Positions 1,557 through 36,181 of a DNA stretch of 36,181 nucleotides are shown in pieces. Source of the DNA: Saprospiraceae bacterium (GTDB taxonomy: Bacteria; Bacteroidota; Bacteroidia; Chitinophagales; Saprospiraceae); contig JALHRK010000021.1 of assembly GCA_022841505.1 (NCBI GenBank), positions 557 to 36,737 of the forward strand, in the 5' to 3' direction. Within the stretch, counting starts at the first letter, position 1. Each line of letters begins with the position of its first letter. The translations under genes were made by a program, and so were the position numbers. The notes beneath the pieces are model-generated. The model was given only the letters and a program-made list of their open reading frames with translations, searched no databases and was not told the DNA's origin.

Positions 1557-2495
1557 ATGAACATTTTTCTGAGCTATTCACATAAAGACAAAGATGCTGC
1601 ACTGACACTCCAGAAAGCGCTCTTTAGCGGCGGGCAGACGGTCTGGATGGACGATGGCCTCACTATTGGGCATGAGTGGCGCACGCAGCTGGCCGACGAA
1701 ATTGCCCGCGCCGATGCTATTGCCCTTGCGATCACGTCCAACTGGCTGGCTTCGCCTTACTGCCAGTGGGAGTTTGTCACGGCGGTTGAACAGGGTAAGA
1801 AAATCATTCTTGTAATGCTGGAAGCAGGATTAAAGCTGCCAGATCGTTTGAGCAAGTACCAATATGCTGATTTCACCAATGGTTTCAACGACCCTGCCAA
1901 AACACAGAAATTCCTGGATGACCTGCTCAAGCTGGCGGTGACAGTCGATAAAAGCACGGTCGCGGGCGTGGATAAGGAGCAGTATGCCATGAAGATTGAC
2001 CAGCAGAATAGTGATGGGGGGCAGAATTTGAATGTGCCAGGAAGTGGCAATACCATTGCAGGGAGAGACCTTGACCAGAGCAGCACGAGCGTCAAAATCG
2101 GCGGTAATGTGCAGGGGGGGAACGTCGTCATCGGGGGCAAGCAAACGGTCGGTGGGAATCTTACAATCACGATGCACGACCTGACACAAACGATTAGCAA
2201 AGGGAAAGCCGCTCCATCAGATAAGGAAACACTGCAAAAGCTGATGGACGACCTGAAAACTACGCTAATGAATGTTCCCTCTGAGCATGAGGAGAGTGGA
2301 AAAAAGGTTGTGGAGCGCACGGAAGAGCTGGTCACTGAAGTCAGCCGCCCGCAAGCGGATCCAGAGGACGTGAAGGACAGTGCCAACAAACTTAAGCGCG
2401 CGGCTGAAAACATAAAGGCAGTGCTGCCAGCGGTATTCACCATCGCGACTAGCATCATTGCGCATGTGTTGAAAATGAGTGGTGCTGGGGCGTAG
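1557..2495 (+). CDS. TIR-domain protein with Gly-rich signalling motif and hydrophobic C-terminus
   Basis: This 312-residue protein begins with a bacterial TIR domain (about residues 1-130). It has the first-strand signature FLSYSHKD (4-11), and Glu72 in SPYCQWEF sits where TIR NADases carry the catalytic glutamate. Known TIR effectors cleave NAD+ or make signal nucleotides from it; catalysis here is inferred. Residues 150-176 are a Gly/Asn/Ser linker. Residues 178-204 hold a repetitive Gly/Val/Ile motif (core GGNVVIGGKQTVGGNL) that also occurs in both neighbouring NLRs. The C-terminal 100 residues are helical, with a hydrophobic stretch (AVLPAVFTIATSIIAHVL, about 288-305) that could be a membrane helix or an oligomerisation helix. 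The start is set by AGGAG at 1544-1548. It lies between NLR2 and NLR1 on the same strand (97 bases before NLR1), which suggests an effector partner of these receptors. Confidence 0.85.
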   Translation: MNIFLSYSHKDKDAALTLQKALFSGGQTVWMDDGLTIGHEWRTQLADEIARADAIALAITSNWLASPYCQWEFVTAVEQGKKIILVMLEAGLKLPDRLSKYQYADFTNGFNDPAKTQKFLDDLLKLAVTVDKSTVAGVDKEQYAMKIDQQNSDGGQNLNVPGSGNTIAGRDLDQSSTSVKIGGNVQGGNVVIGGKQTVGGNLTITMHDLTQTISKGKAAPSDKETLQKLMDDLKTTLMNVPSEHEESGKKVVERTEELVTEVSRPQADPEDVKDSANKLKRAAENIKAVLPAVFTIATSIIAHVLKMSGAGA

Positions 2496-2592: not shown

Positions 2593-5500
2593 ATGTCGTT
2601 GCTAGAAGACTGGCGTCACACCCTGGCATCTACCTCACCTCTGTTTGCCACACTTCTCAAAGAAGACCTCACGATTTCTGTCCCTTATGGGATCACTGCG
2701 AGCGCTATTTTATGGTATGTGCGTGACAAGCTGAGTACGCCGATGATGATTCAGGTGCTGACTGATATTTGCGGGGAGATAGCCTTGCCACTGCTGCGCG
2801 AGGCACTGATGAACTGGGGGGAATTTGAACCGCACGAGGCAGCGCGGACGCTTACGCGCTTGTCTCATGACAATGAGGCACTGCGTTCGATGCTAGACAA
2901 GCTGCTGGCATACTTCCGTGACGATCTGCTGGCGTTGCATCTGCTCCAAGTGGCACCCTCGAACATCACTATTGAGGGCAGCGTTTCAGGTGGGAATATT
3001 GTTATCGGTGGCGTGCAGTATGTCGCAGGTGATCTGATTATTCAATACCTTAAGCCGAAAACCGCGCGTATGTGCCCCAAACCTCCGCCGGAGCCTGAGA
3101 AATTCGGCGGGCGTGATGTCCGTCTGCGTGAGATTATGGAAAAAATAAAAGCGGGGACAGATACTGCCATTACCGCTGTCCACGGGCTGAGCGGCATTGG
3201 CAAGACGACGCTGGCGCGGGCATTGGCGGCACATCTGTATAGCGATAAGACATTCCGTGCGGTGCTATGGGCGGATGTGACTCGCACACCCAGTGCCGTA
3301 AACATCCTTAGTGCCTGGGTGGTGAGCTATGCCGACTCTACTTTCGACTTGGCCGTGTTCAAGGGTGATGAAGGACAGATTGCTGCGGCGGTGAAAGCCC
3401 AGCTTGATAGCGTGATCGCAGAGCAGTGCGAAGACTGCGACCCGCCGCGTGTGCTGATGGTCTTGGATGATGTGTGGGATAACGGGCGCGATGCCGCTCG
3501 GCTTATCAAACGTGCCTGTCCTGCCCATACAACCATCCTCATCACCACCCGCTCGGAGAATGTAGCGATTGACTTGGGTGCGCAGGCTGAGTCTTTGGCT
3601 TATATGACGCCCGATGAATCGGTCGGAATGCTGAAAATGTACTTATTCAATATTCCTGATGATACCCTGCGACGGTTGGGCAAGGCTTTGGGAGGGCATG
3701 CACTGGCGTTGGAATTGGCTGCCCGCCGCATTCAAAAGGAAAAACGCCCTGGCGAGAGTGAAGCAGAGCGGCTGGAACGCTGCATCCATGATTATGAAAC
3801 AGGCATCCCGGCAGGTAGCCCGTTCGATCGGCTGAAATTAGAGCAGGGCGAGCAAAAAGAGGATAATCTGACACACTCGCTGGCCTACAGCTATGGCGAG
3901 CTGGATGAGGACGGTCAACAACGCTTCCGAGCTTTGGGTGTGTTGGCCTTTGATGTGGCCTTTGATGCAGCACTACTAGCGGCATTGTGGGAACTGCCCG
4001 TGGATGAAGTTTACGACCACACAAATCGTCTTGCCCTCCTTTCACTTCTCGAGATTACGCAGGATGGTTATTATCAGCACCCGCTGCTACGGGCTTATGC
4101 TCGCGCGCTGCTCATCGCCGCTGGCGAAACAAACACAGCTTTCAACCGTTATGCCGACTTCGTGATCGCACAGGCGGCGCGGTTCGACGAACTCCCGCTG
4201 GAGCAGTGGACTGCGCTTGATCTGCTGCTGCCGCATATACAAGAGGTGGGGGATACGCTGGTACGTCAATGGGAGGCGGCCACTCCACTTGATGACCCTC
4301 TCAAAGTACGCGCCAGAGATTTTGCTTACAACATTATAAGCTATGTTCATAATCGTCCGCAGATGATCGAGACACCGCAGGGACAGCAGCGACTCGGTAT
4401 GCGCTGGTTGGAAATGGGACTGGTGGCGGCGCGTGAAACCGGTAATTCGGATCGTCAGACGCTGTTTCTCAACAGCATCGGCGTGGTATGGGCGCAGTTG
4501 GGCGAGCCGCGGCGGGCGCTGGACCTCTTCCAGCAGGCACTGCCGCTCTTCCAGGCGGTAGGTAACCGACACGGTGAAGCTACCACCCTCACCAACATCG
4601 GCAGTGCGTGGGCGGCTTTGGGTGAGGTGCATCAGGCGCTGGACTTCTATCGGCAGGCGCTACCCTTGAGACAGGCGGTGGGCGACCAGCGTAGCGAAGC
4701 TACCACCCTCACCAACATCGGCGCGGCGTGGGCGGCTTTGGGCGATCAGCACCAAGCGCTGGACTTCTTCCAGCAGGCACTGCCACTCTCTCAGGCGGTG
4801 GGCGACCGACACGGCGAAGCTACCACCCTCAACAACATCGGCGGTGCGTGGGCGGATTTGAGTGAGCCGCGGCGGGCGCTGGACTTCTTCCAGCAGGCAC
4901 TGCCACTCTCTCAGGCGGTGGGCGACCGACACGGTGAAGCTACCACCCTCAATAGCATTGGTAGTGCGTGGGCAGATTTGGGTGAGCCGCGGCGGGCGCT
5001 GGGATTCTTCCAGCAGGCACTGCCACTCTCTCAGGCGGTGGGCGACCGACACGGTGAAGCTACCACCCTCAACAATATCGGCTCAACATGGGCGACTTTG
5101 GGCGATCAGCGCCAAGCGCTGGACTTCTTCCAGCAGGTACTGCCACTCTTTCAGGCGGTGGGCAATCGGCGGGGCGAAGCCGCCACTCTCAACAGCATCG
5201 GCGTAGCGTGGGCGGAGTTGGGCAAGCCGCGGTGGGCGCTGGGCTTCTTCCAGCAGGCACTGCCACTCTTCCAGGCGGTGGGCGACCAGCGCGGTGAAGC
5301 CGTCACTCTCAATAGCATTGGCGGTGCGTGGGCGGAGTTGGGCGATCAGCACCAAGCGCTGGAGTTCTACCAGCAGGCACTGCCCTTGAGACGGGCGGTG
5401 GACGATCGGCGTGGTGCAGCTACCACCCTCAACAACATCGCCAATGCGTGGGCGGAGTTGGGCAAGCCGCAGCGGGCGCTGAAGTTCTATCAGCAGGCAC

Positions 5501-5721
5501 TGCGGCTCTTCCAGGCGGTGGGCGACCAGCGCGGTGAAGGCTACATCTGCAACGACATGGCAGTTACGTATGAAGAGCTTGGAGATCTGAAAAAAGCGAT
5601 TGCATTTGCTAAGCGCGGCGCTGACCTTTTGCAGAAAATTGATGATGTAAATGCTGCAACGGCCAGTGCATATCTTGAACGTCTTAAAGGCCAGCGCAAA
5701 GGCGGCAGTAAACCCTCATAG
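2593..5721 (+). CDS. NLR1: NB-ARC STAND ATPase with C-terminal TPR array
   Basis: The protein has 1,042 residues in four parts. Residues 1-120 form an unrecognised helical domain containing YGITASAILWYVRD. Residues 124-152 carry the Gly-rich motif (SGGNIVIGGVQYVAGDL) shared with the TIR protein and NLR2. About 165-620 is an NB-ARC/STAND module with P-loop GLSGIGKTT (198-206), Walker B RVLMVLDDVWD (286-296), sensor-like TTILITTRS (313-321) and a GxP-like GGHALALEL (367-375). From residue 626 there are nine TPR units of 40 residues and one diverged final unit. STAND NTPases of this kind act as ligand-triggered oligomerisation switches in antiphage defence and cell death. The start is supported by GGAGAA six bases upstream. 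The region from about 4080 to 4420 is nearly identical in DNA to NLR2, while the N-terminal half is far more diverged. Confidence 0.9.
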   Translation: MSLLEDWRHTLASTSPLFATLLKEDLTISVPYGITASAILWYVRDKLSTPMMIQVLTDICGEIALPLLREALMNWGEFEPHEAARTLTRLSHDNEALRSMLDKLLAYFRDDLLALHLLQVAPSNITIEGSVSGGNIVIGGVQYVAGDLIIQYLKPKTARMCPKPPPEPEKFGGRDVRLREIMEKIKAGTDTAITAVHGLSGIGKTTLARALAAHLYSDKTFRAVLWADVTRTPSAVNILSAWVVSYADSTFDLAVFKGDEGQIAAAVKAQLDSVIAEQCEDCDPPRVLMVLDDVWDNGRDAARLIKRACPAHTTILITTRSENVAIDLGAQAESLAYMTPDESVGMLKMYLFNIPDDTLRRLGKALGGHALALELAARRIQKEKRPGESEAERLERCIHDYETGIPAGSPFDRLKLEQGEQKEDNLTHSLAYSYGELDEDGQQRFRALGVLAFDVAFDAALLAALWELPVDEVYDHTNRLALLSLLEITQDGYYQHPLLRAYARALLIAAGETNTAFNRYADFVIAQAARFDELPLEQWTALDLLLPHIQEVGDTLVRQWEAATPLDDPLKVRARDFAYNIISYVHNRPQMIETPQGQQRLGMRWLEMGLVAARETGNSDRQTLFLNSIGVVWAQLGEPRRALDLFQQALPLFQAVGNRHGEATTLTNIGSAWAALGEVHQALDFYRQALPLRQAVGDQRSEATTLTNIGAAWAALGDQHQALDFFQQALPLSQAVGDRHGEATTLNNIGGAWADLSEPRRALDFFQQALPLSQAVGDRHGEATTLNSIGSAWADLGEPRRALGFFQQALPLSQAVGDRHGEATTLNNIGSTWATLGDQRQALDFFQQVLPLFQAVGNRRGEAATLNSIGVAWAELGKPRWALGFFQQALPLFQAVGDQRGEAVTLNSIGGAWAELGDQHQALEFYQQALPLRRAVDDRRGAATTLNNIANAWAELGKPQRALKFYQQALRLFQAVGDQRGEGYICNDMAVTYEELGDLKKAIAFAKRGADLLQKIDDVNAATASAYLERLKGQRKGGSKPS

Positions 5722-5740
5722 AAAAGCTAGAACATTCGCG

Positions 5741-5879
5741 ATATTGTAGTGCAAAAATCAGGAATATATCTACCAATTGGGCATCTCTCGGTGAGGATTT
5801 TGGTAAAAAGCAGGTAGAATTCCAGATTGTCTATGAAGACGAGTGGCAAACGAAGATTAACGAGCTATTCATAGACTAG
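5741..5879 (+). pseudogene. Scar: remnant of small repeat element joined to the 3' end of a type III res gene
   Basis: Bases 5769-5879 can be read as 36 codons plus TAG and match the last 36 codons of the intact res gene (to 32576) with two residue changes (D to N, E to Q). The other DNA differences in the block are silent, so this piece diverged while still under coding selection. Just upstream, about 5741-5771 matches the end of the small repeated element at 28053-28162 (shared GTAGTG, CAAAAAT and ATATATCT). In the intact locus these two pieces are 4.3 kb apart with mod and res between them. The simplest reading is an internally deleted second mod-res locus. Its TAG overlaps the TAG of the recombinase gene on the other strand. 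Confidence 0.8.
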
Positions 5880-6529
5880 CGATCTTCTTCTTCAGAAATC
5901 AGCATATTTCGTACTGTCATTGCATACCATAACCCGCCCCGTGCGGTGGGAATTTTCCGGCTGTTTAATTCTTCTGCTATGGCTGTGAGGGTATATCCCT
6001 GAGCGCGAAGCTGCTCGATAAGCGGCCTCACGGTATCGCGAAACAGCCTGGTCTGTTCCTTCAAGACATTGGAAGCAATTTCCAAAGCGGGCAGGGGGGT
6101 AGGATTGCCCAGCTTCACGCCACGCGCCTTTGCTGCTTTCAAAGCGTCTTTCGTCCTTTTTGAAATCATTTCTCGCTCATGTTCCGCGACGGCTGCCAGG
6201 ATATGAATAGTGAACCTGGTGGCTTCAGGCATATCGACGGCCACAAAATCAACATGGCTTTCCATCAGGTTTGAAATAAACGCGACGTTGCGGGCGAGGC
6301 GGTCAAGGCGGGCAATCAGAAGAGTGGCTTTGTGTTTTCTACATGCATCAAGAGCGGCTTGCAGCTCCGGCCGTTTATTGCGGGTGCTTTCTATTTCGGT
6401 GAACTCCTGCACGATCTGGCCGCGATTTGCTACAAAATCGGCAACCGCTTGGCGCTGTGCATCCAGCCCTAGACCACTTCTGCCTTGTTTATCTGTAGAT
6501 ACCCGATAATAGGCTACGAATTTGCTCAT
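5876..6529 (-). CDS. Serine recombinase (resolvase/invertase family)
   Basis: The 217-residue protein has the N-terminal catalytic domain of serine recombinases: YYRVSTDKQ with nucleophile Ser11 and Arg9, then ARLDRLARN with Arg74, Asp76 and Arg77. A long helix follows (about 115-150), then a C-terminal helix-turn-helix region (YTLTAIAEELNSRKIPTARG, 174-193) like that of the resolvase-type recombinases common on plasmids. The enzyme cuts DNA at a two-base crossover through a phosphoserine link. On plasmids it usually resolves multimers or moves or inverts segments. A 34-bp inverted site lies 23 bases in front of its start (6552-6585). No strong ribosome binding site is visible. Its 3' end touches the type III res scar, which suggests a role in, or a history of, rearrangement at this spot. 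Confidence 0.9.
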   Translation of the reverse strand: MSKFVAYYRVSTDKQGRSGLGLDAQRQAVADFVANRGQIVQEFTEIESTRNKRPELQAALDACRKHKATLLIARLDRLARNVAFISNLMESHVDFVAVDMPEATRFTIHILAAVAEHEREMISKRTKDALKAAKARGVKLGNPTPLPALEIASNVLKEQTRLFRDTVRPLIEQLRAQGYTLTAIAEELNSRKIPTARGGLWYAMTVRNMLISEEEDR

Positions 6530-6551
6530 AAAAGCAGTATAGCAGGGTCAT

Positions 6552-6585
6552 TTATAAAACTCAAACGGGCGTTTGCATTTTATAA
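6552..6585. other. 34-bp inverted repeat, candidate recombinase crossover site
   Basis: The left arm TTATAAAACTCAAACG (6552-6567) and right arm CGTTTGCATTTTATAA (6570-6585) are inverted copies with two mismatches around a central GG. An arm length of 16 and a two-base centre match the geometry of serine-recombinase dimer sites. It lies directly upstream of the recombinase start. A weaker inverted pair (TCGAAAAC and GTTTTGA, about 6591-6609) follows and may be an accessory subsite. It could also be an operator for the recombinase gene. Confidence 0.65.
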
Positions 6586-6695
6586 GACTGTCGAAAACAA
6601 TCGTTTTGATAAGGTAATATTAAAATGGAATGTCATATTTACAGCTGGAACAAACGATCATATCAATAATGGCGGATATTTTCACAGCCCATTGC

Positions 6696-7760
6696 TCAAG
6701 GCCCTGGGCTTAATGCTGTAGCAGTGGCGGCAGCCTCTCTTGTTGCGGCTCTTGCTGTTGAAGTCATTTGATAATGACGAGCCTCTAGAGTTAAGTTACT
6801 GATAAATTGAGCACGATGAGTTACAACAACACTTGGAGCAAGATCAAATAGATTAAGATAGTAGCCAATTTCTGGAAATTCATTGCTATTTAGAACAACT
6901 GTGAAATCTGAAGCCAGCAAGTCGCTGAGGTAAGATTCATCGAAAAAATATATATTTGCCTGTCTAGGGACTGGGGTTGTAAATAGGCTATGAATCAATA
7001 TTTTGAGTTGTTTTGGTAATGTAATTTGAAGTTCGGTGAAAGACGATTTTTCAAGTAAAAACGAAGACGCAAATTCAATTCTCATGATTGTGTCATTACA
7101 ACCACCAAAAGTACCCTCAATCGCGTAAGAAAAACTTGATTCCTTACTCTCTCGTAATGTTCCTTGAAACGTGAAATCTTGTTGAGTCATTGATGTAATA
7201 ACAATCGTATCATCTATCGTGACAGGATATAAACTACATTGCAAAACTCCCGGTCTACGATCAAATTTTGAGATTGAGACATGATTAATTAGTATGTCAG
7301 AATCAAGTGGGTTGCGTATCGATACGCGCACCATATATGAATTCTCGCTTTCACCAATTAAGATGTTATCAATACTTGGAGAAAAACGTGGAGCCAAGAG
7401 TGGTGTAGGTGTCGGAGAACCGCTAATAGCAACCGTGACAAACTCCTTTAGGGATGGGGTCAATAATGTAACAAAAATGATTGTTATTGTTAGCATCGTA
7501 AAAATAATTAAAAAGCCTATTCGAGTACGCTTTGAGTATTTATGAAGTTGCTTATTATCGAGTATACGTCTTTGTTTTGCTGTAAATAAATATATTCCAA
7601 TAAAGAAGATAATTGTCCATATAAAAGTAATAATCAGTAGAAGAGTTAATTCCTGATTTTGGCGAAATACTATGATAATTCCTATTAGTTGCGATAATAA
7701 AAACACAACAGGAATAATTATACCTCCATATTTTTCTACAATATTTTTTATATCATCCAT
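6696..7760 (-). CDS. Membrane protein of unknown function with TPTP linker
   Basis: This 354-residue protein is not a family I recognise. It begins with three hydrophobic segments (about residues 12-33, 38-58 and 82-105) separated by a short basic stretch. A Pro/Thr linker (SGSPTPTPLLAP, about 113-124) follows, then about 200 residues predicted to be a mostly beta-rich soluble domain. The tail is low in complexity (Ala/Thr-rich, ending TATALSPGP). The TPTP linker and Ala/Thr tail are a style I associate with Chloroflexota surface proteins. Base composition is clearly more AT-rich than that of the plasmid backbone, which suggests separate acquisition. It reads in the same direction as the recombinase but with a gap of more than 160 bases. 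Confidence 0.7.
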   Translation of the reverse strand: MDDIKNIVEKYGGIIIPVVFLLSQLIGIIIVFRQNQELTLLLIITFIWTIIFFIGIYLFTAKQRRILDNKQLHKYSKRTRIGFLIIFTMLTITIIFVTLLTPSLKEFVTVAISGSPTPTPLLAPRFSPSIDNILIGESENSYMVRVSIRNPLDSDILINHVSISKFDRRPGVLQCSLYPVTIDDTIVITSMTQQDFTFQGTLRESKESSFSYAIEGTFGGCNDTIMRIEFASSFLLEKSSFTELQITLPKQLKILIHSLFTTPVPRQANIYFFDESYLSDLLASDFTVVLNSNEFPEIGYYLNLFDLAPSVVVTHRAQFISNLTLEARHYQMTSTARAATREAAATATALSPGP

Positions 7761-8034: not shown

Positions 8035-8931
8035 TTATTTGGAGAGCTGTTCTGCCTCCCATTGTTTGTATGTCTTATCCTGACCCTGAACTTTCCATGC
8101 CGTTGTACCATTTGCAGGACGCCCATTAATGACGGCTGCTGCTGCACTTGGGCTGGTAAACGCATAATTCTCGCTGAAGACTCGATGTGTTCCTGCTTCT
8201 TGCAATATCCCTATACGCACCAATTCTTCGTGAAGATGATTATAGGTGTGTTCCCCGCCACGCCCTTCCCATGCCAAACGTGCGCTCGAACCTGCTAATA
8301 CAATAAACTCACCTTCTTCTAGCTTCGCGGTAGCGTTTAATCCATGTTTGGGCGTGCGTAACTCAAACACAGGTATTTTCGTAGTCGTTTTCCGTTCTAT
8401 ATCTGTAGGAAGAGAAGGACGAGTATTTTTGAGGAAAGAATCGATCCGCAAAGCTGGAAGGACCAAAAAGATATTTTCTAAGAAGGTTTCCATATTTGAT
8501 AATGCAGACTCAGAAAGGCCTGGACGGGCTGGATGATTGCCATTTTCGAGTGTAATTTTGCCAACGGCGGTCGCCTCCTCGATAAGGCGAGCTTCCAAGT
8601 ATTTAGCATGAGCCTTGTTTAAAAGATTGGCGGCTGATGTAATCAGCACAGCAGTATGCCACCAATCTTTTTTTGTGTCATGATTGCGGATACGCTCACT
8701 CACATCTTCGGCTTCGCCAATATAAAGTAGGGGCGTAATATCCCTTTCCCCAATGAGAAGATACACTCCAACATAGCTTGCCTCTTTCCGTTTTAGCGCC
8801 TCGCCAATCTGGGTACGTGGTGTCATCAGTATGTGACCCGTCCAGTTGAATAACTCGGCGGTCAACATTCCATCAGGCCTTCCGTCAATAAAATACAGTT
8901 CTAGTGAACGCCCTTTTGCTGATGTAGTCAT
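8035..8931 (-). CDS. GIY-YIG nuclease family protein with C-terminal DUF4357
   Basis: In this 298-residue protein the GIY-YIG signature appears as GVYLLIG (55-61) and LLYIGEAEDV (68-77), followed by SERIRNH with a probable catalytic arginine (80 or 82) and Glu113 in KYLEARLIEEA as the probable metal-binding residue. The last 65 residues (SPSAAAAVINGRPANGTTAW and onward) fit DUF4357, a domain that often follows GIY-YIG domains in proteins near restriction-modification genes. The expected activity is metal-dependent DNA cleavage, with an unknown target. It is transcribed divergently from the WD40 gene across about 230 bases. No ribosome binding site is obvious. Confidence 0.85.
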   Translation of the reverse strand: MTTSAKGRSLELYFIDGRPDGMLTAELFNWTGHILMTPRTQIGEALKRKEASYVGVYLLIGERDITPLLYIGEAEDVSERIRNHDTKKDWWHTAVLITSAANLLNKAHAKYLEARLIEEATAVGKITLENGNHPARPGLSESALSNMETFLENIFLVLPALRIDSFLKNTRPSLPTDIERKTTTKIPVFELRTPKHGLNATAKLEEGEFIVLAGSSARLAWEGRGGEHTYNHLHEELVRIGILQEAGTHRVFSENYAFTSPSAAAAVINGRPANGTTAWKVQGQDKTYKQWEAEQLSK

Positions 8932-22571: not shown

Positions 22572-22745
22572 GGTTTCTAATCCCCCGATGAAAGGTTTCT
22601 AATTCCCAGATTTTGGTTTCTGATACCCCGAAACTTTGTTGAGGTTTCTAATACCCCGATACCTTACTTAAGGTTTCTAATACCCCAATACTTGACATTG
22701 GTTTCTAATACTCCGATACTGCCCACATGGTTTCTGATACCCCGA
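22572..22745 (+). repeat. Seven 17-bp iterons overlapping the rep start
   Basis: The consensus is GGTTTCTAATACCCCGA. Copies begin at 22572, 22594, 22615, 22643, 22672, 22700 and 22729. Spacing is 21-22 bases for the first three and 28-29 for the rest, so two helical phasings are present. The last copy lies inside the rep coding sequence, starting at the third base of the start codon. Iterons bind the initiator for replication, copy control and autorepression. Confidence 0.92.
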
Positions 22746-23764
22746 AAGAAAAAAAGCTCCTGCCTGATCGACATCCGCAGCACGATCTGTTCGTCTGCGA
22801 CGTGGCTGACGCGGTGCTGAAAGACGATATGGCTTCAATGGAGCATCCTTTTTTCTCCCTATCCAAGAAACCGGAAATCAGCGTGCGCCGCTATGAGAAT
22901 GGCAATAAGTGGATTGAGATCGTACCAAGTGTCCGGGGGCTGGCGACCATCTATGACAAGGATATTTTGATTTACTGCATTAGCCAGATGATTGCCAAGA
23001 TGAATGAGGGCAAAGCCCCCTCCCCTTATGTCAGCATTGTGGCGAAAGACTTGCTGGTGTTTATCAACCGCACAACGGGCGGCAAGGATTACGATGCGCT
23101 CAAGGAGGCGCTAGATCGGCTGGCTGGCACGCGCATTCATACCAATGTTCGTACAGGGGGCGAAGAGGAATATGAAAACTTCGGGTTGATCGAATCCTTC
23201 AAGTTGCGACGTTCCGAGAAAACAGGCCGTATCCTAGAAATTGCGGTGAAGCTCTCCGATTGGGTCTTCCGCTCCATTGCTGCGAAAGAGGTTTTAACCC
23301 TGCACCGAGATTATTTTCGCCTGCGCAAGCCCATCGAGCGCCGGGTGTATGAAATTGCCCGCAAACACTGCGGCAAGCAGGATAGCTGGCGTATCTCGTT
23401 GGAAATGCTGAAAAATAAGTGTGGTTCACGCGCCCCAACAAAGGGCTTTCGCCATGACATTAAAGAACTTGCCAAAGGCGACCACCTCCCCGATTACACA
23501 ATCCGCTTTGAGGAAGATATGGTCGTGTTCCATAATCGCACGACACTCAAGGAGATGGATTCGGCTGGTTTCATCTCCTACCCGGTATTAGATACCGAGA
23601 CTTACCATGATGCTCGAACCATCGCTCCTGGCTATGATATTCACCTTCTGGAACAAGAGTGGAAAAATTGGTGGTATGAAAGCGGAAAGCCCCCTCTCTC
23701 CGATCCCGATAAGGCATTTCTCGGCTTTTGCAAACTACGATATACCCGCAATCCTCATCCATAA
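22727..23764 (+). CDS. Replication initiator protein, RPA (RepA-like) family
   Basis: The 345 residues match the RPA initiator family throughout: DDMASMEHPFFSLSKKPE, GLATIYDKDILIYCISQM, LLVFINRTTGGKDYDALKEA, FGLIESFKL, LSDWVFRSIAAKEVLTLHRD, then YFRLRKPIERRVYEIARKHC. This is a winged-helix initiator that binds iterons and opens the origin with DnaA. The family is best known from alphaproteobacterial plasmids. The start at ATG 22727 matches the usual family N-terminus. There is no Shine-Dalgarno sequence, and iteron 7 covers the start, so bound Rep would block its own expression. It converges with the RHH gene across a 116-base gap. Confidence 0.93.
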   Translation: MVSDTPKEKKLLPDRHPQHDLFVCDVADAVLKDDMASMEHPFFSLSKKPEISVRRYENGNKWIEIVPSVRGLATIYDKDILIYCISQMIAKMNEGKAPSPYVSIVAKDLLVFINRTTGGKDYDALKEALDRLAGTRIHTNVRTGGEEEYENFGLIESFKLRRSEKTGRILEIAVKLSDWVFRSIAAKEVLTLHRDYFRLRKPIERRVYEIARKHCGKQDSWRISLEMLKNKCGSRAPTKGFRHDIKELAKGDHLPDYTIRFEEDMVVFHNRTTLKEMDSAGFISYPVLDTETYHDARTIAPGYDIHLLEQEWKNWWYESGKPPLSDPDKAFLGFCKLRYTRNPHP

Positions 23765-28008: not shown

Positions 28009-28203
28009 ATGCCCCACTATAACCGCCCGCTCGTGTGGGTATATAGGCGCAAGCACCCGCGAAGTTTCTCAGGCTTATGGCGGGTGTTTGTACGTTTGGT
28101 AAAAATGGGTTTCCCCAACACCCCGAACTATACCGCGCACTATGTAGTGCTGCAAAAATTAGAGATATATCTTGTTGATATAAAGCGGATAGAAGGTTTT
28201 TAG
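28009..28203 (+). CDS. Small ORF carrying the repeated element (copy 1)
   Basis: The 64-residue ORF has a good promoter and ribosome binding site. The phrases HPRSFSGLWRVFVRL and NYTAHYVVLQKLE recur, broken by a stop and a frameshift, at 33661-33772 (SFSGFWRVFVIL and NYIAHEAVLQKL), and a shorter piece is at 5741-5771. In copies 1 and 2 the matches stay codon-aligned, so a real small protein family is possible. It precedes mod by 75 bases and could be a leader or control peptide of the RM operon. No family is recognised. Confidence 0.5.
   Translation: MPHYNRPLVWVYRRKHPRSFSGLWRVFVRLVKMGFPNTPNYTAHYVVLQKLEIYLVDIKRIEGF
28053..28162 (+). repeat. Repeated element, copy 1
   Basis: About 110 bases from GCACCCGCGAAGTTTCTCAG to GTGCTGCAAAAATTAG, with conserved ends and a diverged middle. 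It matches 33661-33772, and its last part matches 5741-5771. The left part can fold (CACCCGC with GCGGGTG). Confidence 0.75.
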
Positions 28204-28278: not shown

Positions 28279-30066
28279 TTGCCGAATCTCACCTTTAAGG
28301 GAAAGAGTTTCGTTGAAAATCATCATCTTTCGATACCCTATCACCAGCTTATACCTAACGAGGAAGCAAGCCTGACTGATAAGGTTAGTTTGAATGACAA
28401 TTTAATCATTCATGGTGACAATCTTATTGCGCTCAAAGCGCTGATGCCGAGTTATCAAGGGCGTGTAAAGTGCATCTACATTGATCCTCCATATAACACA
28501 GGGAATGAAAGCTGGCGTTATAACGACAACGTAAATAGTTCCATGATGCAAGAGTGGCTAAAGCTAAATCGACCTGTTGATAAAGAGGATTTAACGAGGC
28601 ACGACAAATGGCTTTGTATGATGATGCCTCGCCTTAATTTGCTTAAAGATTTTCTTCGCGACGATGGGGTAATTTTTATCAGTATTGATGATAATGAGGC
28701 TCATCATTTGCGAATGCTCATGGATGAGATTTTCGGTTCTGCAAATTTCATTGCGCAACTTGTATGGGAAAAGGGCAGAAAGAATGATGCAAAACTTTTC
28801 TCCGTAGGTCATGAATACATGCTGGTCTATGCTAAATCTTTAGCTCGACTCAAAGAATTGAAAACCATTTGGAGAGAAACGAAACCTGGCGCAAAAGAAA
28901 TTTGGGAAGAATACCTTCTTTTGCGTGAAAAACATGGTGCTAATAACCAGAAAGTACAAGCAGCGCTAAAAGAATGGTTTTCTAATCTAAATGATAAGCA
29001 CCCTTCAAAACGTCTAAGTCGCTATTGGCGCGTTGACAAATATGGCCCTTGGCGAGATCGTGATATTTCCTGGCCGGGAGGGGGAGGGCCTCGCTACGAT
29101 GTGATGCACCCTGGTACTAAACAACCTTGTGCAGTACCGGAAAGAGGTTGGGGGTTTGCAACGCCAGAAGCCATGAAAAAACAAATAGATTTGGGGTTGG
29201 TGGTCTTTAGAAAGGATCATACTAAACCGCCTTTTCGCAAGGCTCATTTACGCCCTATCTCCGAGGAGCTTCTTGAAGATGACGAAGCTGAAATTGATGA
29301 TGAATCAAATGTAGATGGAGAAATTGGTACACAGGTGATGTCGAGCGTCATCTATAAACAAGCGCAAGTAGCCGTGAAATATCTTCGCAATCTTATGGGC
29401 GGTAAAGTTTTCAATAATCCGAAAGATCATGAGATTATCGCCAAAATCATAGATTATGTAACGCTACCTCATAATCATGATATAGTGCTTGATTCATTTG
29501 CAGGTTCAGGCACGACAGGCCATGCAGTTTTGCAACTTAATAAAGATGACGGCGGAAATAGACAGCTTATCCTGATAGAAACGGAAGACTACGCTACTAC
29601 CGTCACCGCAGAACGGCTAAAAAGGGTAATTAATGGTGTTCCAGAAGCCACAGACGAATCATTACAAAAGGGCATAAAAGGCTCTTTTAGTTTCTTCGAG
29701 TTGGGCAACCCCATAAATATAGATGCTGTATTATCAGGTGCTGGGCTGCCTTCCTATGAAGAACTTGCACGGTATCTCTTTTATACAGCCACAGGCGAGG
29801 AATTTGACCCGGATAGCGTTCTGGAAAAAGAAAACTATATCGGTGAAAGCACACTGTTTCACGTCTACTTGTTTTATAAACCCGATCTTGAGTATTTACA
29901 GAATACCTCGCTCAACCTGGATTTGATACGCAAACTCCCTGATAATCAGGAAAAACCGCGCCTTATCTTTGCGCCTACCCGTTTTGTCGATAACGAATAC
30001 CTGGAAAGACATAACATCCGTTTCGTGCAACTACCATTCGAGATTTATAGGTTTCCATCCAACTAA
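28279..30066 (+). CDS. mod: Type III restriction-modification methyltransferase subunit
   Basis: The start is TTG 28279; the N-terminus LTFKGKSFVENHHLSIPYHQ is typical of this group. The 595-residue protein has catalytic motif IV DPPYNTGNE (68-76) before the SAM motif LDSFAGSGTTGHAVLQL (about 411-427), the beta-class order of type III Mod and N4/N6 methylases. The central region (about 150-360) should include the target recognition domain. Mod methylates one strand of an asymmetric site and, with Res, forms the restriction complex. Res begins two bases after the mod stop, so they form one operon. Confidence 0.93.
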   Translation: MPNLTFKGKSFVENHHLSIPYHQLIPNEEASLTDKVSLNDNLIIHGDNLIALKALMPSYQGRVKCIYIDPPYNTGNESWRYNDNVNSSMMQEWLKLNRPVDKEDLTRHDKWLCMMMPRLNLLKDFLRDDGVIFISIDDNEAHHLRMLMDEIFGSANFIAQLVWEKGRKNDAKLFSVGHEYMLVYAKSLARLKELKTIWRETKPGAKEIWEEYLLLREKHGANNQKVQAALKEWFSNLNDKHPSKRLSRYWRVDKYGPWRDRDISWPGGGGPRYDVMHPGTKQPCAVPERGWGFATPEAMKKQIDLGLVVFRKDHTKPPFRKAHLRPISEELLEDDEAEIDDESNVDGEIGTQVMSSVIYKQAQVAVKYLRNLMGGKVFNNPKDHEIIAKIIDYVTLPHNHDIVLDSFAGSGTTGHAVLQLNKDDGGNRQLILIETEDYATTVTAERLKRVINGVPEATDESLQKGIKGSFSFFELGNPINIDAVLSGAGLPSYEELARYLFYTATGEEFDPDSVLEKENYIGESTLFHVYLFYKPDLEYLQNTSLNLDLIRKLPDNQEKPRLIFAPTRFVDNEYLERHNIRFVQLPFEIYRFPSN

Positions 30067-30068
30067 TC

Positions 30069-32576
30069 ATGGAAATAAAAGACTATCAACAGAGAGTGCT
30101 AAATCAAATAGAAGCGTACCTCCAAGCATTGGATAGGGAGGGTGAAAAGAAAAGGAAGCTCATCGAAGCTAAGATTGATATTGAGCATGATGCTCCGGCT
30201 GCCGCGTGGAGAGCGCTGAATTTTCGCAAAGATTACAAAACATGGAAAAATGGACTGGGGGAAGATACGCCATCCGTATGTCTCAAAGTTCCTACAGGCG
30301 GCGGGAAAACATACTTAGCTGCTCGTTCCATAGGGCTTATCAATCTTAATTACCGTAAAGAGCGTACTGGATTTGTACTTTGGATCATGCCAAGCAACCA
30401 AATTTATAAGCAAACTCTGGCGGCGATGCGAAATCGGGAACACTTCTATCGACAGGTTTTAGACCAGATCAGCGGCGGAAAAACTTTAATTCTTGAGAAA
30501 ACAGATCGGTTTAACCGTCAACAAGCGAATGAACATTTAATTGTGATGCTGCTGATGCTGCCCTCTGCAAATCGCATGGACAAAGAAACCCTCAAAGTCT
30601 TTCAGGATAGTGCTGGTTTCGAGAGTTTCTTTCCGCCAGAAGATGCTTCTCCCGCGCACGCTGAGATGCTGTCACAATTCCCAAATTTAGACCATTTTGG
30701 GAGCGTAAAGCAGTTTACAGGGGTGGCAATTAAAACCAGCCTGGGCAATACACTCCGTATTCTCAAACCCCTTATCATCCTGGATGAAGGGCATAAATCC
30801 TACAGTGCTGGCGCTCGAAAAACCATCCAGACCTTTAATCCCTGCTTTGTGTTGGAATTATCGGCAACACCAAAAAAAGAAAGCAATATTCTCGTTGAAG
30901 TCACTGGACAAGAGTTAAACCGGGAAGAAATGATAAAGCTCGACCTCAACATCATGAGCAAAGCCAGCCCTGACTGGCGGGATACGCTTTTAACAGGATT
31001 CGAGCAGATTCAGAAGCTGGACAGCCAGGCAACGGAATACAGAAATGAAAGTGGGCGGTATATTCGCCCAATTTGCCTTATCCAGGTGGAACGAACAGGT
31101 AAAAAGCAAGATACAGGCCAATTTATCCATGCCAATGATGCGATGCACTACCTCATTGAAAAATGCGGGGTAAACCCTGGTCAGATCGCTATCAAGAGTG
31201 CAGAAAATGATGGCCTGGAAGATATTGATCTCTTAAGTCCAGAGAGCCGAATTCAGTACATCATCACTAAAAGTGCTTTACAGGAAGGTTGGGATTGCCC
31301 GTTCGCTTATGTCTTGGTGATATTAACCAAAGCGACTTCAAAAACGGCGCTCACTCAATTGGTTGGGCGTATATTACGTCAGCCTGACGCCAAGAAAACT
31401 GGCATGAAATCCCTGGATGAAAGTTATGTGTATTGCTATCAGCGGAATACACGCGAGGTTCTCAGCGCAATCGAGCAAGGTTTTGAGAAAGAGGGTCTAG
31501 GCGATTTAAGAGGTCACATACGACAGGCGGAAAATGAAGTTGCTCAAACCGTTGATGTGCGCTACCGCGAACGTTTCCGCAAATTTGAGGGCAAAATTTA
31601 CCTCCCGCGATTTGTGGTGCAGGAAGCAGAAGGATTTCGTTCCCTCAGCTATGAGATGGATATTTTGCGGTATATCGACTGGAACGCTATCGACATACCA
31701 GCGAATCTCAATGTTACTTTGGGCGTATTATCGGATGAGGATCGGCAAACTAAGGTTGGGCTAAGTGATAATCCTTATAAATTGATAGAGGAACATCATG
31801 TCGAAACACACGATGTAGTGCTGGATATTGATTTCATTTTTGTGACTCGGCAGCTCTCCGATATTGTGCCAAATGCCTGGATTGCCTACAAAATCGCCAA
31901 AGACACATTCAATCTTTTTCTGGCAAAGCACCCGGAAGCCCAAGTTTCCGCCAACATCGCGCTTATCATTGGTCAACTCAGACAGTTGCTTATTACCGAA
32001 AGAGATAGACTGGCGCACAGGGAATTCAGAAAACGCATCGAAAATAAACAGATTTTCTTCTTTTTGGAGGCAACAACCGATTTTGCGCTACCCTCAACCG
32101 TGCGTGTAAAAGCCAACGGCTCTAAGCTTGTTCAGGATAATAATGATCCTATTCAGCTATCCCTGTTTGAATACGAACAGGAGGACGCCTTCAACAATAC
32201 GGAGAAAGCGGTAGCTATTTACTTAGATAAGCAAGCAAATTTGCTATGGTGGTATCGTAACCTCGTTGGAAAGCAATCCTATAAAATTCAAGGCTGGCAA
32301 CCTCCACCGATTTACGCGGATTTTCTGGCCGCTAAAAAAGATGATAGCAATGCAATGGATTACAGCAAGGTCTTTGTACTTGAAACTAAAGGGCTGCATC
32401 TCAAAGGCAATCCAGACACGGAATACAAGAGAAATATCTTTGATCTTTGCACTGAGCTTGGAAAATCAACTGATTGGGCGTCTCTCGGTGAAGATTTCGG
32501 TAAAAAAGAGGTAGAATTTCAGATTGTCTATGAAGACGAGTGGCAAACGAAGATTAACGAGCTGTTCATAGACTAG
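30069..32576 (+). CDS. res: Type III restriction enzyme Res subunit
   Basis: The 835-residue protein contains a superfamily 2 helicase-translocase core: Walker A PTGGGKT (75-81), Walker B LDEGH (238-242), SATPKK (motif III-like) and QLVGRILRQP (motif VI). The C-terminal nuclease is PD-(D/E)xK-like, with IYADFLA and then VFVLETKGLHLKG. Together with Mod it moves along DNA and cuts near unmethylated sites in head-to-head pairs. Length and motifs look complete. The last 36 codons recur at 5769-5879 as a scar. The 3' end overlaps the convergent gene by 11 bases. Confidence 0.93.
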   Translation: MEIKDYQQRVLNQIEAYLQALDREGEKKRKLIEAKIDIEHDAPAAAWRALNFRKDYKTWKNGLGEDTPSVCLKVPTGGGKTYLAARSIGLINLNYRKERTGFVLWIMPSNQIYKQTLAAMRNREHFYRQVLDQISGGKTLILEKTDRFNRQQANEHLIVMLLMLPSANRMDKETLKVFQDSAGFESFFPPEDASPAHAEMLSQFPNLDHFGSVKQFTGVAIKTSLGNTLRILKPLIILDEGHKSYSAGARKTIQTFNPCFVLELSATPKKESNILVEVTGQELNREEMIKLDLNIMSKASPDWRDTLLTGFEQIQKLDSQATEYRNESGRYIRPICLIQVERTGKKQDTGQFIHANDAMHYLIEKCGVNPGQIAIKSAENDGLEDIDLLSPESRIQYIITKSALQEGWDCPFAYVLVILTKATSKTALTQLVGRILRQPDAKKTGMKSLDESYVYCYQRNTREVLSAIEQGFEKEGLGDLRGHIRQAENEVAQTVDVRYRERFRKFEGKIYLPRFVVQEAEGFRSLSYEMDILRYIDWNAIDIPANLNVTLGVLSDEDRQTKVGLSDNPYKLIEEHHVETHDVVLDIDFIFVTRQLSDIVPNAWIAYKIAKDTFNLFLAKHPEAQVSANIALIIGQLRQLLITERDRLAHREFRKRIENKQIFFFLEATTDFALPSTVRVKANGSKLVQDNNDPIQLSLFEYEQEDAFNNTEKAVAIYLDKQANLLWWYRNLVGKQSYKIQGWQPPPIYADFLAAKKDDSNAMDYSKVFVLETKGLHLKGNPDTEYKRNIFDLCTELGKSTDWASLGEDFGKKEVEFQIVYEDEWQTKINELFID

Positions 32577-33525
32577 GCATTTCCTGTCCATGTTGCCGGG
32601 CCGCTTCTTGCTCATGGTCAAGATAATGGGCCAGGGCAATCCCCAAAATTGACCAGTAGGACGCCTGCAACGCCTCGCTGATGCTCTCAGTAAGGGAGGT
32701 TAGCTCGTCCTCCGCTAGCCTTGAAATTCCCTCGGCCAGATACGGCAGGTGCTTTCGGATATGCTCTCGCTCCATCCACAAGCCTGGCACAACATCTTGG
32801 GTTTTGAGGTGAGGCTGCCGGGTGCGAACATGGCGTTGCTCACGCCGCAGTCGGGCGCGGAATCCTTCCTCTGCTATAGGTGCTTCTCGGATTATCGGCT
32901 GCGAGTGGATAGGCGTGAAGTCTGCGCTGCTGGTATCTACTATGACGCCCGGAACCTGCGCCGCCGCTTCGTGCTCCCGCTTGCCCTGAAATTCGCCGAT
33001 CTGCATCGCAGCGCTGATCTCAGCGCTCGTTAATCCCGCACCCTGGGCGGCGAGTATGGCTTCTGGCAACTGGGCGTAGAATCGCCCGCGATAGGTTTCA
33101 TCGACCCAAAGCGTCACGGCCTGTTCGTGGGCAAGATTGACCAACGCATGATAGCACGATAATTTCGTAGCTTTTTCGCTGACAGCAGGGGGTAGGGGCG
33201 GCGGGACATTTTCGTGATCCGGCTCTGGTTGCTCCGGCGTATCCTTATTCTCTGGTAGTGCTTCGCTGGCAAACATGGGCGTGGTCAGCGCTTCGGCTGC
33301 CCGCCGCTGATCGCGCTCAATCTCTTCCGGCGTGCGCACATCTTCGAAGATCAGCTCAAGGGTCGGCGCTGCCGCTGCTGCAAGCCAGGGACGTGCCTGC
33401 TGCCCAAAGACAAACGTCTCGTTGATCGAGAACATTGTGGTTTGCTCCGGGCGACTGCGGGGCGTGCGCTTGGTTTCCCATGCGCCAGTAAACATATTTG
33501 CTTGTTGAAGGGACTCTGCTGACAT
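32566..33525 (-). CDS. Unknown protein with Pro/Glu-rich linker
   Basis: I use ATG 33525 (GTG 33543 is possible). The product has about 319 residues. Residues 1-110 are low in complexity with Ala/Pro/Glu stretches (PENKDTPEQPEPDHENVPPP). The middle (about 120-200) has a compact helical part (KLSCYHALVNLAHEQAVTLW), and the C-terminal 100 residues are helical with ASYWSILGIALAHYLDHEQE. There is no catalytic signature and no family I recognise. High GC and a style like the prim-pol and zinc-finger genes suggest a backbone gene. It is convergent with res (11-base overlap) and divergent from NLR2. Confidence 0.65.
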   Translation of the reverse strand: MSAESLQQANMFTGAWETKRTPRSRPEQTTMFSINETFVFGQQARPWLAAAAAPTLELIFEDVRTPEEIERDQRRAAEALTTPMFASEALPENKDTPEQPEPDHENVPPPLPPAVSEKATKLSCYHALVNLAHEQAVTLWVDETYRGRFYAQLPEAILAAQGAGLTSAEISAAMQIGEFQGKREHEAAAQVPGVIVDTSSADFTPIHSQPIIREAPIAEEGFRARLRREQRHVRTRQPHLKTQDVVPGLWMEREHIRKHLPYLAEGISRLAEDELTSLTESISEALQASYWSILGIALAHYLDHEQEAARQHGQEMPSL

Positions 33526-33543
33526 TCTGCAACGTAGCAACAC

Positions 33544-33876
33544 CCCCTACATGGCGTCAACCAAAAGTCAAATAGGCAATCAGGTATGAGTAGAAATCAG
33601 CCGCAATAGTAGAGCAGTATTTTAGGTATTGTCTGCCTCGATTTCATCTTTTAGCGCACTGCACCCGTGAAGTTTCTCAGGCTTTTGGCGGGTGTTTGTC
33701 ATTCTGACAGAAATTACTCTGCTTCACACATTAAGAACTACATCGCGCATGAGGCTGTGCTGCAAAAATTAGGCAGTATGCACTCCGGTTTGAGTCTTGC
33801 TTCTTTGTCGCAGTCTTTAGGGAGATATTTTTAAGGTTATAATGCAATAACATATGTTGGGGTAAGGGAGAATTTG
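33544..33876. other. Intergenic region before NLR2, with repeat copy 2
   Basis: About 330 bases hold the degenerate repeated element (33661-33772) and the NLR2 leader. AAGGGAG at 33864-33870 is the NLR2 ribosome binding site. No other feature is supported. Confidence 0.6.
33661..33772 (+). repeat. Repeated element, copy 2 (degenerate small ORF)
   Basis: It matches copy 1 at both ends (AAGTTTCTCAGGCTT, TGGCGGGTGTTTGT, and GTGCTGCAAAAATTAG). In the copy 1 reading frame it has a TGA and a frameshift, so any protein is broken. It lies between the unknown gene and NLR2. Confidence 0.75.
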
Positions 33877-36181
33877 ATGATCGCACTGGACATCTGGCGC
33901 GTAAATCTGAAATCTCATTTAGTCGAATTTGCATCCCTAGCCGACCAAGACCATAGCATTGACCTGATCTATGGGATTACGGCAGCAGCAGTGCTGTGGG
34001 ATGTTCGTCAAGCGCCCTTCGAGGATACTCAGAAAGAAGCCCTCATGACCTCATGTGGTGATGCAAAGCATTTGCCACACCTAATTCGAGCGTTGGGTGG
34101 ATGGGATGCGTTTACGCCCATTGAGGCTGCCCGCAACTTGAGCAAACGCCAACGTGAGAGCAACGACCTGCACGAGGCCCTGACGGCTGTATTGGGCTAC
34201 TTCATTCAAGACCTGTTCGCGGAAAAGATGGTGCAGCAGAACATCACCATCGCCGGGAATATTTCTGGCGGGAATATTGTCATCGGCGGCTATCAGATCG
34301 TCGCGGGCGATCTCATTAGCCAATACATACGACAGAATGTTACGACCTGTCCGACGGCTCCTAATCCTCCAGCCCATTTTACGGGGCGCGAACAAGAGCT
34401 GAAAGCTTTACGCCAGGAACTTTCCGGCGATAATGTGGTGGCAATTACGGCCGTGCGAGCAATGGGCGGCATGGGTAAGACGACGTTAGCCCAGGCCCTG
34501 TGCCATCTGCCAGATAAATCCTTTGATGCGGTATTGTGGGCGAACATTGGTGAAAATCCGCAGGTGACTTCGATTCTATTGGAGTGGGCGCACTACGCGG
34601 TAGATGATTACGCGCTAAAGCCTGACGCGAAACCGGAAGAAATCGCTGGATGGGTGCGCGGGCAGCTCACCCAGATCATGAATAAGTCGGATGGCTGCGG
34701 CCAGCGTTGGCTGGTGGTTTTCGATGATGTATGGAACAAGCAGGTCTGTTATGACACGTTAGCCCTGCTCCAGACCGCATTGCCGCCGGGCACGAAAACC
34801 CTCATTACGACACGCCAGGTCGATACGGCCACCTATCTACGGGCGCGCTCCATCGAACTCTATGAGTTGTCAAATGATGATGCACTAACACTCCTCCAAA
34901 AACTGCAAGACAATCGCCATCTAACGAACGATCACCTCCATCGCGTGGTGGCACTGATTAAAGGGCATCCCCTCACATTGGAGATCGCTATCGCTAGGCT
35001 GAATAATGCTGAAGACTCTGCCGACATCGATGCTATCCTGGACGATTACCAGCGAGGAATCCGCGATGGCAGCCCTTTTGACGCCCTTGATTTGGGCGTT
35101 GAAACACCTCGAATTCTAAATGTGGTGTTCGGACGCAGTTACAACGCATTACCCGAAGCGGATCAGGGTCATTTCCGGACATTAGGGATTCTGGCAGCCA
35201 GCACAACCTGGGAGCGCCCCCTGGCGGCTGCACTATGGGAAATGAATGATACGAACGCGCTCACGCAGGCGCACAAGACCCTGCGCTTGGCAGCTCTCAC
35301 ACAGCAGTACGAAAAAGCGGAAAGCAAGTCAGGTGGCTGGTATCGCCAGCACCCACTGCTGCGAGCTTATGCTCGCGCGCTGCTCATCGCCGCTGGCGAG
35401 GATGGCGTGGCCTTCAACCGCTACGCTGACTTCGTGATCGCACAGGCGGCGCGGTTTAATGAACTACCGCTGGAGCAATGGGCTGTGCTGGACCCCCTGC
35501 TACCGCATATACAGGAGGTGGGGGATACGCTAGTCCACCAATGGGAGGCGGCTATCCCATCTGACGAGTCTTTGAGAGTGCGAGCGGGAGCCTTCGCCGA
35601 CACTATCGGCAACTATATTCATAACCGTCCGCAGATAATCGAGACACCGCAGGGCCAACAACGGCTGGGCTTACGCTGGCTGGAGATGGGACTAGCGGTG
35701 GCGCGTGAAACGGATGATCCAGCCCGTCAGGCTCTGTTTCTCAACAACATCGGCTTGGCGTGGTCGGACTTGGGCGAAGTGCGTCAGGCGCTGGACTTCT
35801 ACCAGCAGGCGCTGCCCTTGAGACGGGCGATCGCCGACCGGGGCGGCGAAGCCACCACCCTCAACAACATCGGCAATGCCTGGTCGGACTTGGGCGAGGT
35901 GCGTCAGGCGCTGGACTTCTACCAGCAGGCACTCCCTCTCTTCCAGGCGGTCGGCAACCGGCGCGGCGAAGCCACCACCCTCAACAACATCGGCAGTGCC
36001 TGGTCAGCGTTAGGCGAGGTGCGTCAGGCGCTGGACTTCTACCAGCAGGCGCTGCCGCTCTTCCAGGCGGTCGCCGACCGGGGCGGCGAAGCCACCACCC
36101 TCAACAACATCGGCAGTGCCTGGTCAGCGTTAGGCGAGGTGCGTCAGGCGCTGGACTTCTACCAGCAGGCGCTGCCCTTGA
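33877..36181 (+). CDS. NLR2: NB-ARC STAND ATPase, N-terminal part (runs off the window, continues at 1)
   Basis: 768 residues are visible. Residues 1-118 form the same unknown helical domain as in NLR1 (YGITAAAVLWDVR). Residues 122-150 are the Gly-rich motif (SGGNIVIGGYQIVAGDL). The NB-ARC has P-loop MGGMGKTT (196-203), Walker B WLVVFDDVW (278-286), TLITTRQ and KGHPLTLEI (362-370). TPR units start at residue 622 and reach the window end in frame with base 1. The start is ATG 33877 with AAGGGAG upstream; TTG 33874 is an alternative. About 35350-35700 is nearly identical in DNA to NLR1, whereas the first 450 residues are much more diverged, so the gene is a mosaic. Confidence 0.9.
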   Translation, partial: MIALDIWRVNLKSHLVEFASLADQDHSIDLIYGITAAAVLWDVRQAPFEDTQKEALMTSCGDAKHLPHLIRALGGWDAFTPIEAARNLSKRQRESNDLHEALTAVLGYFIQDLFAEKMVQQNITIAGNISGGNIVIGGYQIVAGDLISQYIRQNVTTCPTAPNPPAHFTGREQELKALRQELSGDNVVAITAVRAMGGMGKTTLAQALCHLPDKSFDAVLWANIGENPQVTSILLEWAHYAVDDYALKPDAKPEEIAGWVRGQLTQIMNKSDGCGQRWLVVFDDVWNKQVCYDTLALLQTALPPGTKTLITTRQVDTATYLRARSIELYELSNDDALTLLQKLQDNRHLTNDHLHRVVALIKGHPLTLEIAIARLNNAEDSADIDAILDDYQRGIRDGSPFDALDLGVETPRILNVVFGRSYNALPEADQGHFRTLGILAASTTWERPLAAALWEMNDTNALTQAHKTLRLAALTQQYEKAESKSGGWYRQHPLLRAYARALLIAAGEDGVAFNRYADFVIAQAARFNELPLEQWAVLDPLLPHIQEVGDTLVHQWEAAIPSDESLRVRAGAFADTIGNYIHNRPQIIETPQGQQRLGLRWLEMGLAVARETDDPARQALFLNNIGLAWSDLGEVRQALDFYQQALPLRRAIADRGGEATTLNNIGNAWSDLGEVRQALDFYQQALPLFQAVGNRRGEATTLNNIGSAWSALGEVRQALDFYQQALPLFQAVADRGGEATTLNNIGSAWSALGEVRQALDFYQQALPL

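Follow-up and report, generated by a model that had tools for sequence, protein, structure and literature searches.

The DNA analysed here, referred to as the window, is a stretch of 36,181 nucleotides from contig JALHRK010000021.1 of a Saprospiraceae bacterium (GCA_022841505.1). The contig, which looks like a bacterial plasmid, has 36,737 bases with identical 425-bp ends and is linear as deposited. It carries an intact type III restriction-modification (RM) locus, mod-res, two NLR-like genes with a TIR-domain gene, and a small serine recombinase gene. A second, short copy of the res 3′ end, the res relic, lies between the NLR-like gene NLR1 and the recombinase gene. The features, in window positions, are as follows.

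1557–2495, plus strand: TIR-domain protein, between the two NLR-like genes (Pfam TIR_2, E 3.1e-22)
2593–5721, plus strand: NLR1 (NB-ARC and TPR), ending 46 bp before the relic
5729–5772, plus strand: possible tail of a small repeat, joined to the res relic (score 40 to the copy before mod; ATCT fits either side)
5768–5879, plus strand: res relic, the end of a diverged res allele, without a start codon and without the ETK taken for the nuclease motif
5876–6529, minus strand: small serine recombinase (Pfam Resolvase, E 2e-29), conserved core complete by comparison with four plasmid homologues
28053–28173, plus strand: small repeat, copy before mod (the matched part ends at 28162 and the alignment extends to 28173)
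28279–30066, plus strand: mod, type III methyltransferase, intact (PADLOC MTase_III, E 2.2e-152; Pfam N6_N4_Mtase; DPPY in the translation; a single match in the genome)
30069–32576, plus strand: res, type III restriction subunit, intact (PADLOC REase_III, E 8.7e-181; Pfam ResIII; homologous end at 32465–32576)
33661–33772, plus strand: small repeat, second clear copy, before NLR2 (74% to the mod copy)
33874–36180, plus strand: NLR2 (NB-ARC and TPR), running off the window and open to window position 1284 if the contig ends are joined

By gene content and motifs, the intact locus is a type III RM system. Its restriction subunit is like EcoP15I-type Res in its Pfam ResIII and PADLOC REase_III matches, and has a weak match to EcoP15I Res itself (4zcf_C). 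Searched against its own genome (7.5 Mb, E ≤ 0.001), Mod matched one place, and Res matched nothing beyond the intact gene and the relic. The intact res overlaps by 11 bp with a convergent minus-strand ORF (32566–33543), a frame of 325 aa for which no relatives were found in PLSDB or in 297 other genomes of the family. ORF 6696–7760 also had no relatives in PLSDB. At 8035–8931 there is a DUF4357 protein that matches the PADLOC candidate defence family PDC-S14 (E 1.5e-114). The N-terminal part of NLR1 matched nine PLSDB records, all at below 60% identity and every one of those listed cyanobacterial; within its own genome it matched only itself and NLR2.

In a whole-genome search the res relic aligned with 32465–32576 over 112 nt, ungapped, with 102 of 112 positions identical (91%), and its E-value of 4.1e-39 rules out a chance match for the res part. 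The relic consists of the last 36 codons of the intact res plus its TAG stop, and the likeness ends at that stop codon. The relic and the recombinase gene converge, and their stops have the letters CTAG in common. An earlier note on this DNA, made from the letters and open reading frames, had placed the last 36 codons of res within 5741–5879, and the alignment to the stop confirms this. The relic sequence had no third place in its own genome (7.5 Mb, E ≤ 0.001). The recombinase gene is not truncated by the junction: its product has the whole conserved core and a length of 217 residues, next to approximately 217 to 229 in the four plasmid homologues.

Read from stop to stop, the frame of the relic is open for 55 codons (55 aa) and contains no ATG, GTG or TTG start. 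The same note had named a fragment lying inside an intact unrelated gene as evidence against its reading; no such gene appeared, and the missing start codon rules out this origin. The relic begins at Res residue 800 in the alignment, and the ETK of the intact Res, at residues 772–774, therefore lies before the relic start. In view of the protein family, we take this ETK to be the PD-(D/E)XK nuclease motif. Because its frame has no start codon and the relic begins after the putative nuclease motif, it is probably inactive; judged from that frame, it is a dead remnant that cannot encode a functional Res protein. It differs from EcoP15I-type Res in having neither the helicase part nor the ETK, and so is not a Res protein. 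The relic thus combines significant similarity to res, in frame to the stop, with a coding-type source and no encodable functional protein.

Ten bases in ten codons differ between the relic and the intact res, eight of them silent and two replacements (Asp to Asn, Glu to Gln). As few replacements arose in 2 of 3,000 neutral simulations (P = 0.0007). The estimates were dS 0.57 over approximately 20 silent sites, few enough to leave dS rough, and dN 0.023 over approximately 88 replacement sites (Fisher P = 1.3e-5). In an alignment of 78 homologous Res ends (82 loci were taken, and four with 750 residues or fewer were dropped), both replacements sit at variable columns, ranking third and sixth in variability among the 36. 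The relic shares 34 of its 36 residues with the intact Res and no more than 19 with any of the 78 aligned homologues, which argues that its source was a sister allele. The silent excess and the variability of the replaced columns together indicate that most of the divergence arose while the sequence was coding, so that the truncation is younger. Neutral change since truncation has a 95% upper bound of 0.072 per replacement site, against a total dS of 0.57. Thus, on the codon pattern, the relic is derived from a sister res allele under coding constraint, and its truncation is more recent than most of its divergence from res. The earlier note had read the mostly silent differences as the mark of a functional, diverged allele and not of a fresh duplication, which our counts bear out; the codon-position comparison it proposed gave an excess of silent changes, and the contrary pattern, an excess of replacements, was absent.

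The differences are unevenly placed, with nine of the ten in the first 55 nt of the relic (Fisher P = 0.008; P = 0.028 on silent sites alone). At 44 nt, the longest identical run between the two res ends does not clearly stand out (P = 0.055; P = 0.14 on third positions). The crowding in the 5′ half hints at an exchange between the res ends near the 3′ end. In the test for such recombination, also proposed beforehand, the clustering was a hint in its favour and the run-length tests were not significant.

The sequence before the relic brings in the small repeat, an element of approximately 110 bp that stands before mod and before NLR2 and is possibly a common control region. The copies at 28053–28162 and 33661–33772 are 74% identical over 112 positions (E 1e-14). 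The mod copy lies between mod and the primase gene, which diverge, and the NLR2 copy lies between ORF 32566–33543 and NLR2, which likewise diverge. A CACCCGC/GCGGGTG hairpin is possible in the mod copy, and the first hairpin (CACCCGY...CGGGTG) can be formed by both copies; folding of the whole element was better than that of shuffled sequences for the mod copy (z −2.70) but not for the NLR2 copy (z −0.51). There was no clear third full copy on the contig, no match in PLSDB at E ≤ 0.1 and no Rfam match at gathering scores, and 60 relatives gave only short matches outside the contig itself (best E 0.0106).

At most the last ~45 nt of the repeat are present at the scar. The query 5722–5772 scored 40 against the mod copy, a value that 1 of 4,000 shuffles attained and that no window did, whether among 3,945 of the contig or among 1,540 matched in GC. 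This is the best place on the contig for the mod copy, yet in a slightly coarser scan of the contig 1 of 40 shuffled queries scored at least 40 at some place, and a two-copy profile of the repeat gave the place an E of 0.24, behind one unrelated place. Without its last five bases, which possibly belong to res, the query scored 32 against the mod copy, and an unrelated place on the contig scored 34. That score of 32, which belongs to the 46 nt before the relic, was matched by 3 of 6,000 windows and 3 of 6,000 shuffles; the same 46 nt scored 29 against the NLR2 copy (16 of 6,000 windows) and 27 against the recombinase 3′ end (20 of 6,000 windows). The part of res that immediately precedes the homologous stretch gave a score of 14, no match. 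At the junction, ATCT fits both the repeat side and the res side, a four-base overlap; short overlaps are usual at illegitimate deletion joints. On these scores, a repeat tail at 5729–5772 is likely. The proposal that a fragment of the repeat is fused to the res end stood in part: the repeat exists in a second clear copy elsewhere, the best-of-contig score favours a tail at the scar, and the contig-wide test, being near chance, does not.

We consider the relic to be probably what is left of a mostly deleted second mod-res locus, which had diverged from the intact one but belonged to its family. All but the last 36 codons of this second res (res′) are absent from the relic's place. A mod′-res′ pair would once have lain between NLR1 and the serine recombinase gene, convergent with the latter, and an illegitimate deletion of approximately 4.3 kb would have fused codon 800 of res′, at the ATCT overlap, to the end of the repeat-like element that preceded mod′. 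The 46 nt before the relic resemble the sequence before mod and not the upstream part of res, the pattern expected of a deletion that had one of its ends before mod. Such a loss would have been cheap, since a related intact system remained, and if the lost system had the same recognition site, the intact Mod would still have guarded the DNA. That the sister system persisted may explain why the loss was tolerated. Passages of PMC3874152 describe, for Dcm and EcoRII, how the killing that follows loss of an RM system can be lessened by a methyltransferase that recognises the same sequence.

If a complete second mod-res was deleted in place at the scar, its 5′ side would be marked by the repeat tail, which is suggestive. 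Against this reading are the near-chance standing of the repeat tail across the contig, the NLR2 copy and recombinase 3′ end scoring almost as well as the mod copy, and the clustering of differences, which favours recombination. What holds of the earlier note's scar of a deleted second type III RM locus is a diverged, constrained res remnant; the in-place deletion of a complete mod-res held less well, the repeat tail being suggestive and no undeleted relative having been found. The relic most likely records ordinary gene loss, not a working device, and probably has no function.

Whether the two res ends bracket the NLR genes depends on the form of the molecule. The best other match of the contig end within the same TPR array is 95%. 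One run of ten Ns, at contig positions 547–556, lies just before window position 1 and inside the NLR2 TPR array, and leaves the array length uncertain. With the ends joined, the NLR2 frame is open for 1,240 codons, across the N gap, to window position 1284; this would be weak support for a circle, because the TPR unit is 120 bases. On a circle of 36,312 bp the two res ends, in the same orientation, would separate arcs of 9,615 and 26,697 bp, the first holding ORF 32566–33543, NLR2, TIR and NLR1 and the second the replication, transfer and recombinase genes. Of the claim that NLR2-TIR-NLR1 is bracketed by res ends pointing the same way, the orientation is confirmed, and the bracketing holds if the contig is circular, as its 425-bp ends support. 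The TPR parts of NLR1 and NLR2 share 78% DNA identity over 830 bp, and both genes flank the TIR protein on the presumed circle.

This bracketing by two 112-bp res ends is the starting point for a rival history that we regard as rather less probable than deletion, though a serious contender. The res tail would have arrived with the NLR2-TIR-NLR1 segment when a donor circle or related plasmid carrying a res end crossed over with the res already present; the products would be an intact hybrid res at one edge and the tail at the other, and a complete second locus beside the recombinase gene on this plasmid would be unnecessary. A single crossover between res alleles would leave similar sequence, and the differences cluster away from the 3′ end, as noted above. 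RecA exchange acts on homology in a usually quoted size range that includes 44 nt, the length of the longest identical run. Looping out would give a replicon of 26,697 bp, with the intact res convergent with the recombinase gene, and a circle of 9,615 bp. However, the donor would still need a truncated res, so a deletion is not avoided; the crossover leaves the repeat-like sequence before the tail unexplained; and no donor was found. Taken further, the res ends could be the edges of an exchange unit, in which recombination between res alleles shuttles NLR2-TIR-NLR1 among plasmids and rebuilds an intact res each time, the res 3′ end being a docking site for defence genes; we hold this extension to be doubtful.

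It is improbable that the junction is an assembly or strain chimera, in which reads from two plasmid variants were joined and the junction is absent from any one molecule. The genome is in 999 contigs, and this contig has the ten-N gap and long TPR repeats, all of which speak for this reading. Yet the relic differs from the intact res at ten sites and so is no copied stack of reads, and NLR1, the relic and the recombinase gene are contiguous without an N, the contig's only N run being elsewhere.

Still less probable is a tail that remains in use as an expressed peptide, as the end of the NLR1 transcript or as a target of the recombinase. In favour are an open frame of 55 codons, a well-kept peptide sequence and, on the minus strand, a weak promoter-like site that overlaps the tail (5772–5743; one of three found, against 1.4 in shuffles). 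The frame has no start codon, however, and there is no terminator-like site in 5500–6750. As to the recombinase, the four relatives viewed have other downstream genes, and a better candidate for its site is a palindrome at 6552–6585, on the other side of the gene; an attachment site at the res end thus has no support. This palindrome, just upstream of the recombinase start, is a near-perfect one of 34 bp (16-nt arms, 88% complementary, 2 nt between) and is plausible as a resolution site.

A long target duplication or fresh duplication, with the res end doubled on insertion of the NLR segment, is extremely unlikely: the direct repeats of ~100 bp that bracket the segment resemble the long, variable target duplications of about that size with which some RM systems insert (described in passages of PMC3874152), but such copies would start identical and a non-coding one is not expected to collect eight silent against two replacement codons, whereas these differ by 9%, mostly silently, and are flanks neither identical nor neutrally decaying, which rules out their having been made by that insertion.

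A complete mod-res between NLR1 and the recombinase gene was sought in related plasmids, as had been proposed, and none was found. The undeleted arrangement had no relative in PLSDB, IMG/VR, a GTDB scan or the genomes of the family, order and class, where any other Res was at most 52% identical over its full length, too distant to be a sufficiently close relative. The closest other full-length Res was at 49% in PLSDB, 51% in the best 80 of 569 GTDB relatives (with one partial match at 54%), 50% in 396 genomes of the order and 52% in 395 genomes of the class. There was none in IMG/VR, where the search reaches close relatives only. The DNA of the relic and recombinase gene matched 1 of 298 family genomes, its own. 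No second res 3′ end was found near other res genes at any of 81 loci with a complete res end (at most 79 of these 81 being distinct, since two repeat others; 89 loci were given), in flanks of at most 8 kb as against the 9.6 kb of the nearer arc here, so that a similarly spaced pair could escape. A relative of the recombinase (E ≤ 1e-6) occurred at 1 of the 89 res loci, approximately 4.3 kb upstream of res.

The backbone has other affinities. The replication initiator RPA (22727–23764) is at ~59% to alphaproteobacterial plasmids, which are top among the matches listed, and the recombinase (5876–6529) is nearest to alphaproteobacterial plasmids, at ~60% identity. An alphaproteobacteria-like backbone in a genome assigned to the Bacteroidia may reflect transfer between hosts or a wrong assignment of the contig. 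Composition was indecisive on this point: the contig GC of 0.503 compares with 0.470–0.526 in 15 genome samples, and the median tetranucleotide correlation was 0.34 to 0.40 for three stretches of the contig vs 0.57 among the genome samples. A wrong assignment would mean that the searches within family, order and class covered the wrong group; it would leave those of PLSDB, IMG/VR and the GTDB scan unaffected.

As a gene remnant the relic is of a known kind; its neighbourhood is unusual. Like other remnants of RM genes left by deletion or rearrangement, it is a gene end, truncated and once under constraint, that lies next to mobile-element genes; it differs from them in that a diverged sister system is intact on the same contig and just 36 codons are left. 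Movement of RM systems is often tied to genome rearrangements, according to passages of PMC3874152. A narrow search of the open-access literature found no description of such a scar beside an NLR-TIR segment. The relic indicates that this plasmid line, or a recombination partner, once had a second type III system, diverged but of one family with the first, and that most of it disappeared, its sister and the defence genes around it being kept. It is a small case of RM turnover, and if the res ends recombine, they would offer a simple route for the exchange of an NLR-TIR cassette between plasmids.
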